DNA of 51,198 nt from a virus. Position 1 is the stretch's first letter. The number at the start of each line of letters is the position of its first letter. The stretch spans positions 1 through 51,198 of IMG/VR virus record IMGVR_UViG_3300035162_002988; one strand, written 5' to 3'. This document shows, piece after piece, positions 49,916-51,198 of the stretch. Made by a program: the position numbers and the translations under genes. Below the pieces are notes generated by a model. It was not told where the DNA came from and did not search any database. It saw only the letters and a program-made list of their open reading frames with translations.

Positions 49916-49937
49916 ATACGATACTAATAAGATAATA
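49915..49937 (+). promoter_or_regulatory. AATACG-N9-AGATAATA motif, copy 4
   Basis: Exact match; five bases after its end is the ATG at 49943, so AGATAATAATAAT also acts as the A-rich leader. Confidence 0.65.
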
Positions 49938-50161: not shown

Positions 50162-50211
50162 GTTTAACTGACGAGAGTTTAATACTCGAAACTACGCAAG
50201 TAGTCTTAAAC
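50162..50211 (+). ncRNA. Hammerhead ribozyme, type I topology
   Basis: Complete core. Stem I GTTTAA 50162-50167 / TTAAAC 50206-50211; core CTGACGA 50168-50174; stem II GAGT 50175-50178 / ACTC 50184-50187 with loop TTAAT; core GAA 50188-50190; stem III ACTAC 50191-50195 / GTAGT 50200-50204 with a GCAA tetraloop; cleavage base C 50205 (GTC triplet). All invariant bases of the family are present, including A-U 15.1-16.1 and C-G 15.2-16.2. Predicted cut: between 50205 and 50206, 16 nt before the next ATG. It would separate the upstream message from the downstream TM gene and leave a 5'-OH leader. Confidence 0.9.
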
Positions 50212-50819: not shown

Positions 50820-50841
50820 ATACGAATAACTAAAGATAATA
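50819..50841 (+). promoter_or_regulatory. AATACG-N9-AGATAATA motif, copy 5
   Basis: Exact match; five bases before the ATG at 50847, the same distance as copy 4. Confidence 0.65.
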
Positions 50842-50846
50842 ATAAT

Positions 50847-50990
50847 ATGAAAACAATTAAATTTTACCCAAGTGACAGATCACTAATGAACTTAGACGGC
50901 AAATTGCTAAGAGGTTACACTATAGATAGTATACCAGACAACATAAACTCATGGTTTAACTATAAAGGTCTAACTTACGTAACAAGTTAA
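50847..50990 (+). CDS. Small hypothetical protein, 47 aa
   Basis: MKTIKFYPSDRSLMNLDGKL, then GYTIDSIPDNINSWFNYKGL and TYVTS. A small beta-type fold is likely. It has a proper leader and a downstream structured RNA. No family. Confidence 0.5.
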   Translation: MKTIKFYPSDRSLMNLDGKLLRGYTIDSIPDNINSWFNYKGLTYVTS

Positions 50991-50999
50991 TCTAATAAC

Positions 51000-51088
51000 T
51001 CACGAAATGTAGTGAACTGGTGAGGGATCGTTATGAACTCAGGATGTACTACAATAGCTCATACTTAATCAGTATGGGCTTTTCGTGG
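51000..51088 (+). ncRNA. Three-way-junction leader RNA before a zinc-finger-like gene
   Basis: Outer stem CACGAAA 51001-51007 / TTTCGTG 51081-51087 (extendable by a G-U pair), second stem TGTAGT 51008-51013 / ACTACA 51048-51053, third stem AGCTCATAC 51056-51064 / GTATGGGCT 51072-51080 (9 bp, one G-U). Only two junction bases are unpaired. It ends two bases before the ATG at 51090. Not a tRNA and not a hammerhead. A cis-regulatory leader (translation switch) is the best guess. Confidence 0.6.
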
Positions 51089-51089
51089 T

Positions 51090-51198
51090 ATGAAATGTAA
51101 CCACAATATTCCACAAGCTAGATTAGATCTTGGCTATACTGTCTGTGTAAACTGTTCAACTGAAGAAAAACTAGGTTGTATCGACACTATTCATCACA
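51090..51198 (+). CDS. Zinc-finger-like small protein (partial, runs off window)
   Basis: MKCNHNIPQARLDLGYTVCV, then NCSTEEKLGCIDTIHH, still open at the window edge. CxH at 3-5 and CVNC at 19-22 suggest a treble-clef or ribbon zinc site. The HNIP and VCVNCST pieces recur in a small conserved protein of marine phages. Its start abuts the three-way-junction RNA. Confidence 0.65.
   Translation, partial: MKCNHNIPQARLDLGYTVCVNCSTEEKLGCIDTIHH

Follow-up and report, generated by a model that had tools for sequence, protein, structure and literature searches.

The RNA at positions 51000 to 51088 of virus record IMGVR_UViG_3300035162_002988 is best explained as a composite phage RNA, in which a constant carrier (S1) bears exchangeable arms, the loops being putative docking sites and the scaffolds handles. 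We put the probability of this reading at about 0.55. S1 recurs at several sites in these genomes, mostly just before a start codon, and offers two graft sites (the junction and the loop of stem 3) which hold different arms or none, depending on the relative. The loop of the window's arm, present once per genome, was found on several unrelated scaffolds with flanking stems that differ and yet stay complementary, and other domains and scaffolds were exchanged likewise, nesting included. An earlier note, made from the sequence alone, had proposed a regulated leader of a zinc-finger gene; this is half the story at best, and a combinatorial domain-grafting RNA reads better. In what follows, the window denotes the whole stretch of DNA that was analysed, i.e. 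the complete virus record of 51,198 bases.

A three-way junction in front of a start codon

The three-way junction claimed for this site was confirmed (all features of the window described in this section are on the plus strand). The RNA at 51000 to 51088 folded with an MFE of -29.1 kcal/mol compared with a shuffle mean of -17.4 (sd 2.6; z -4.44), and none of 200 shuffles was as stable; homologues of the whole RNA were found in L001 and L002. The MFE structure reproduced the compact junction of three stems with two free bases, which are located at 51054 and 51055. The outer stem, which belongs to S1, pairs its 5' strand CACGAAA (51001 to 51007) with the 3' strand UUUCGUG (51081 to 51087) over 7 bp, or over 8 bp if a possible U-G pair between 51000 and 51088 is counted. 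It is followed by the grafted arm (51008 to 51053), which consists of a 7-bp stem 2 (51008-51014/51047-51053), an internal loop and a conserved terminal loop of 20 nt, GUGAGGGAUCGUUAUGAACU (51020 to 51039), closed by an inner 3-bp stem CUG/CAG (51017-51019/51040-51042, i.e. within 51017 to 51042). The stem 3 hairpin of S1, AGCUCAUACU-UAAUC-AGUAUGGGCU (51056 to 51080), has 10 bp in the MFE structure (51056-51065/51071-51080) and not 9 as stated before. It leads into a terminator-like UUUU tract (51080 to 51083) whose last three U are paired in the outer stem.

The last base of the outer stem is 51087 (or 51088) and the first base of the ATG is 51090, in agreement with the spacing of two bases given before. 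This ATG opens a zinc-finger-like gene of 36 codons (51090 to 51198) which runs off the end of the record. It has CxxC pairs and 384 relatives in IMG/VR, but two relatives run against Pfam gave no match. A 47-aa ORF (50847 to 50990), preceded by a promoter-like motif at 50820, stops 10 nt 5' of the RNA; given this arrangement, the RNA probably belongs to an mRNA and would be transcribed together with the upstream ORF. A coding explanation for 51000 to 51088 was rejected, as the ORF listing showed nothing of at least 60 aa spanning the RNA. The promoter-like motif, ATACGA-N-GATAAT, occurs at 49916 and 50820 of the window (plus strand), in both cases shortly 5' of an ATG (two occurrences compared with none in shuffles). 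Its closeness to the ATG suggests that the mRNAs of this phage have very short leaders or none.

The S1 scaffold and its arms

S1, which comprises the outer stem, the stem 3 hairpin and UUUU, was present in 46 contexts including the window. A scan with the 3' strand of the scaffold alone contributed 42 stretches, and three of 49 (L186, L212 and L218) were dropped as chance. ATG followed S1 directly in 34 of the 46 contexts and TAGATG in four, and eight had no start codon nearby; the genes 3' of S1 differed among contexts. The MFE fold contained S1 in 32 of 34 S1 RNAs. With the S1 descriptor, one of 35 matches (L210) was dropped, and shuffled loci gave three. When 18 chosen records were searched whole, 11 of them held one to four copies of S1. 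Three tandem S1 RNAs with different arms lie at 11660-11940 of L219 (minus strand).

The 5' strand of the outer stem varied among relatives (CCACGAA, ACACGAA, TCGCGAA, CTACGAA), and a compensatory change from CCACGAA/UUCGUGG to CUACGAA/UUCGUAG was seen in L183 and L196. In a 14-row alignment one pair of stem 3 showed a double change from G-C to A-U, and a U-G pair of the same stem was conserved in 13 rows. This alignment was built with a descriptor that demands pairing, so that its paired percentage is biased and the covariation which it also shows carries a selection bias.

Relatives of the zinc-finger protein were fetched from IMG/VR blind to the RNA (80 of the 384 were kept), and arms were compared at 26 of the 80 loci; in the closest relatives the outer stem and stem 3 were kept and stem 2 was exchanged. 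S1 preceded zinc-finger orthologues in seven loci: with the window's arm in L100, with a second arm, GUGCCUUACAAUUUAAAAUAAGGUC, in L101 and L112, with a third arm, CAUGAGUGUGAUG...AACUCGA, in L105 and L108, and with no arm in L102 and L103. L104 was cut, L106 carried S1 one gene further upstream, and in L107 and L109 to L111 S1 was not at that place. Many arms of S1 are inserted at the junction, the loop of stem 3 holds others, and some are nested: the UUUCCCUU..AUAGGUGACGG arm of L196 encloses a near-copy of the arm that L183 carries directly on stem 3. Taken alone, the arms exceeded shuffles in stability by only a small margin (mean z -1.08 for 36 arms).

One rival explanation is a cis-regulatory leader: the junction would govern how the gene two bases downstream is translated or transcribed, and the arm would serve as a riboswitch-like or protein-responsive sensor. 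The frequent ATG immediately 3' of the S1 stem, the recurrence of S1 before zinc-finger orthologues and the attenuator-like UUUU after stem 3 agree with it, and to this extent the proposal of a regulated leader stood. However, the whole junction is not a conserved unit. A riboswitch or gene-specific leader is recognised by a conserved aptamer before functionally related genes; here the arm was swapped or absent before orthologues, even in close relatives, the downstream genes varied, and eight of the 46 contexts had no start codon within a few bases. Further, the loop of stem 2 also occurs in tRNA-like RNAs and hairpin arrays, which do not evidently lead any gene. Because arms are swapped and the genes downstream vary, a zinc-finger-specific leader was ruled out as the sole reading, and we regard a cis-regulatory leader in general as unlikely.

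It is similarly improbable that S1 is no more than a hairpin which terminates, processes or stabilises transcripts at the borders of genes, with palindromic insertions, neutral or selfish, as its arms in harmless places. As in intrinsic terminators, a G+C-rich hairpin is followed by UUUU; in addition, arm-free versions of S1 exist and the arms are highly variable among close relatives. In contrast to intrinsic terminators, the tract comprises just four U, three of which are paired in a conserved outer stem that continues beyond the tract and reaches the start codon. Passenger insertions also fit poorly with loops that are strongly conserved across unrelated flanks while their stems change by compensation, with arms that lack the fixed ends expected of a mobile DNA element, and with a single copy per record, i.e. 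no proliferation.

A conserved loop on different scaffolds

When parts of stem 2 were searched for in IMG/VR by exact match, GYGAGGGATCGTTATGAACT was found in 32 other records, i.e. in 33 with the window. The loop that ends the window's arm (GYGAGGGAUCGUUAUGAACU) was present in all 33; as the records had been chosen for having it, the informative part is the copy number, which was one per record save for one record with copies near both ends. The near-invariance of the loop is in part an effect of exact-match searching. When both loop halves were fixed and 0 to 12 free bases were allowed between them, the gap was CGTT in 21 of 21 real matches, with four of 25 stretches (L043, L044, L047 and L052) judged unrelated by their flanks and dropped. 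The first half alone gave 27 matches, 15 with the exact continuation and 12 unrelated. In a further loop search five of 38 stretches (L053, L054, L061, L064 and L067) were judged unrelated from their flanks and dropped; L056 and L058 come from a single record. Among the 80 loci fetched by the zinc-finger protein, the core was found within five mismatches in one, which indicates that the loop domain is rare and patchy.

The flanks of the loop were wholly different between contexts yet complementary, as determined with 11 non-redundant contexts. Native flanks paired with a mean of -9.24 kcal/mol compared with -4.95 kcal/mol when the right flanks were permuted, and none of 20,000 permutations was as good. 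A context's own flank ranked first in six and second in three of the 11 cases; the weakest contexts were L045, where it ranked sixth, and L015, where it ranked tenth of 21. The inner 3-bp stem occurred in nine distinct sequences, with variants such as CUG/CAG, GUG/CAU, UUG/CAA, CGG/CCG, GCG/CGU and UAG/CUA. All 27 cells were paired, G-U cells included, and ten had changed on both sides (covariation score 1.000 compared with 0.176 shuffled). Homologues devoid of covariation or of the stems had been named in the earlier note as the outcome that would refute its claim; the strong covariation of flanks and inner stem points the other way.

The arm with this loop was found on at least six scaffolds, among them tRNA-like RNAs, hairpins and junctions. 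Besides S1 (window, L001 and L002), it was carried by a tRNA-like RNA at the position of the anticodon arm (L006, L014 and L069), a second tRNA-like type (L049), simple hairpins (L007, L009, L012 and L022), a junction with GACGAGTA..TTAATTAG/ACATAA..GAAT.GCTA (L055 and L059) and a scaffold with GCATGCACGGTGGAAGTCCGA (L045, L056 and L062).

That the conserved element acts as DNA (a cruciform, recombination or packaging site) and not as RNA is very improbable. Inverted repeats flanking a fixed core and the hypervariable segment location are in line with such a site, but the U-G pair of stem 3, the G-U cells of the inner stem and the presence of the domain within tRNA-like RNAs bearing T-arms argue for RNA. 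Antisense pairing of the loop with the phage's own genes was likewise considered and rejected, the longest match in the phage being 9 nt, on par with shuffled loops (mostly 9-11 nt). The loop may be complementary to 23S rRNA; the family search returned no host rRNA locus.

Domain exchange, in some cases nested, is general in these loci. With nine hand-written scaffold descriptors, three to 13 distinct inserts were found for eight scaffolds and a single insert for one; since the inserts were found by hand-written descriptors, these numbers of scaffolds and inserts are minimum values. Domains of 41-51 nt recurred almost unchanged, between new flanks, on two scaffolds or three. Domain H was found on L062 (tRNA-like), L135 and L137; L167 and L059 share domain I, and L136, L161 and L175 share domain J. 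A scan for domain H, in which three of the 11 contexts shown were unrelated (L223, L224 and L227), added the tRNA-like L229 (CUAU/AUAG versus CUGU/ACAG in L062), L226 (GAAGU/ACUUC versus GGAGU/ACUCC in L137), L228 and, as another junction, L233. Flank permutation tests gave 1 of 24 for A1, 1 of 6 and then 4 of 24 for H, 2 of 6 for D and 3 of 6 for J, and those with half motifs 539 of 720 for C and 12,490 of 20,000 for S9; for these other domains the tests are individually non-significant and, the sets being small, weak or uninformative.

Further observations concern the architecture of individual scaffolds. The tRNA-like RNAs of L006, L014, L015, L059, L062, L063, L069 and L229 have a 7-bp acceptor stem and a T-arm, the D-stem being slight or missing, and varied conserved domains replace their anticodon arm. 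By eye, several of them show a pair resembling G3-U70 and have an acceptor stem that is followed by an A, as is the case in alanine tRNA and tmRNA. Matches of 81-82 nt to the full tmRNA model near the core, at 9564-9644 of L051 (minus strand) and 374-455 of L057 (plus strand), correspond to a tRNA-like domain with an mRNA part of almost nil. Finally, the scaffold CGAGGU..GUGGU..GGCAGG..ACCAC..CCUGCC..ACCUCG would form crossing helices, a putative pseudoknot-like frame with arms in its loops; it was seen in L135, L136, L137, L141, L152, L153, L162, L163 and L175.

Carrier phages, proposed role and known RNA families

Relatives of the window's terminase were found in 39 of the 40 records tested (67-86% identical, best stretch each), and the carriers form one phage clade; the one record without such a relative is a 6-kb fragment. 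The records behind L105, L108 and L112 have a terminase 86% identical to that of the window and other arms at the equivalent site, whereas those behind L001 and L002 have a terminase 82-83% identical and the window's arm. Exchange is therefore fast relative to protein change. The terminase matches of the records behind L015 and L019 (G009 and G011) contained several stop codons of different kinds, which are probably due to frameshifts or poor assembly.

The nearest named phage by terminase was MW202828.1 (65%), followed by Flavobacterium and Cellulophaga phages (46% for those listed). Apart from matches with 2-3 mismatches, judged to be chance, MW202828.1 contained none of the motifs. In 50,697 phage records the window region had no match, and the core gave partial, chance-level matches only (four records). 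Core and S1 were absent, as exact matches, from the species genomes searched, and a plasmid search gave one partial match, in Nostoc (E 0.06), which was judged chance. In named phages, the array of L066 matched only the tmRNA of Maribacter phage Panino.

In the composite RNA which we favour, S1 would be a stable hairpin that serves as carrier or as boundary between genes transcribed together. At each conserved loop a different trans partner may dock (a protein, RNA or small molecule of the host or the phage), and the scaffolds would be interchangeable handles that fold, protect and present the loops. As the loops are conserved and the stems and scaffolds are free to vary, the loops are likely the binding parts and the scaffolds the handles. 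New RNAs may be born by recombination that exchanges whole helical arms. That the RNA acts as a decoy against host factors is a guess by analogy, for which one parallel is known: the pseudo-ToxI RNA of phage PhiTE, which imitates an RNA of host defence and changes through expansion and recombination (PMC3475682). This recombination-evolved phage RNA could serve as a model for the role of the arms; it differs in being made of tandem antitoxin repeats with no interchangeable scaffolds, and the likeness is one of description.

More broadly, we tentatively propose, at less than even odds, that these flavobacterial-type phages keep a shared, recombining repertoire of RNA domains that acts as a fast-evolving combinatorial ligand library against host factors, e.g. 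defence systems or the translation machinery. The scaffolds of this putative library would be leader hairpins, junctions, pseudoknot-like frames and tRNA- or tmRNA-like bodies, with recombination from helix to helix. Shuffling of protein domains is a basic rule of evolution. Exchangeable RNA domains of this kind were not described in the literature (mostly outside subscription papers) and families searched; judged by this literature, ongoing RNA domain shuffling among phages with terminases 67-86% identical to that of the window would be new. It would provide a natural system for studying how structured RNAs acquire parts, along with conserved RNA loops for which specific partners probably exist in flavobacteria-type hosts. 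Covariance models built for a single family may overlook such RNAs or divide them.

The earlier note had assigned the RNA to an unknown class and had named an Infernal search of Rfam as a check. In this search no family matched 51000 to 51088 at gathering score, in keeping with that assignment. When matches up to E<=10 were admitted, trpB alone covered the full RNA, scoring 18.1 bits compared with a cut-off of 59. ARAGORN detected no tRNA or tmRNA in 51000 to 51088, the 22 distinct related loci gave nothing but tRNA and tmRNA matches with Rfam, and the covariance models of GOLLD and ROOL matched neither the window RNA nor the related loci searched. That the RNA has diverged from a known family such as a riboswitch, ribozyme, tmRNA, GOLLD or ROOL, as the position of related loci near tRNAs and short tmRNA-like RNAs might suggest, is on these results extremely improbable and, for the families of Rfam 15, largely refuted.

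PMC12286853 describes GOLLD and ROOL as structured phage RNAs of undetermined function, often near tRNA islands. The RNAs studied here are structured phage RNAs too; they differ in being short and having exchangeable domains and no Rfam match, whereas GOLLD and ROOL are single long RNAs with a family-specific architecture. With tmRNA and tRNA (RF00023 and RF00005) the scaffolds of L006, L014 and L069 share the 7-bp acceptor-like stem and the T-arm; the window RNA has neither, and in the relatives a grafted domain takes the place of the anticodon arm. A set of 104 structured RNA candidates is described in PMC2864571.

A ribozyme-like RNA, the other possibility raised before, was not borne out: 51000 to 51088 showed no ribozyme signature, the hammerhead core (CUGANGA and GAAA joining three stems) is absent from it, and the descriptor matched the window at 50168 only. 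The stretch CUGGUGAG..CUC looks similar by eye; its core bases differ, and a hammerhead reading of 51000 to 51088 was rejected. One phage hammerhead reported by Perreault et al. 2011 (PMC3088659) lies 13 nt before a start codon, and phage hammerheads resemble the RNA at 51000 to 51088 as small three-stem RNAs between phage genes. A separate, complete type I hammerhead motif (CUGACGA, GAAA and three stems; plus strand) is located at 50162 to 50211 of the window, between two small genes. Its cleavage site is GUC, and its predicted fold is as expected. The motif was missed by Rfam at E<=5; the descriptor gave no matches in shuffled loci, and an extra match in L101 looks like chance. The hammerhead motif is conserved in L105, L109, L110, L191 and L203, with a compensatory change in stem II of L110.
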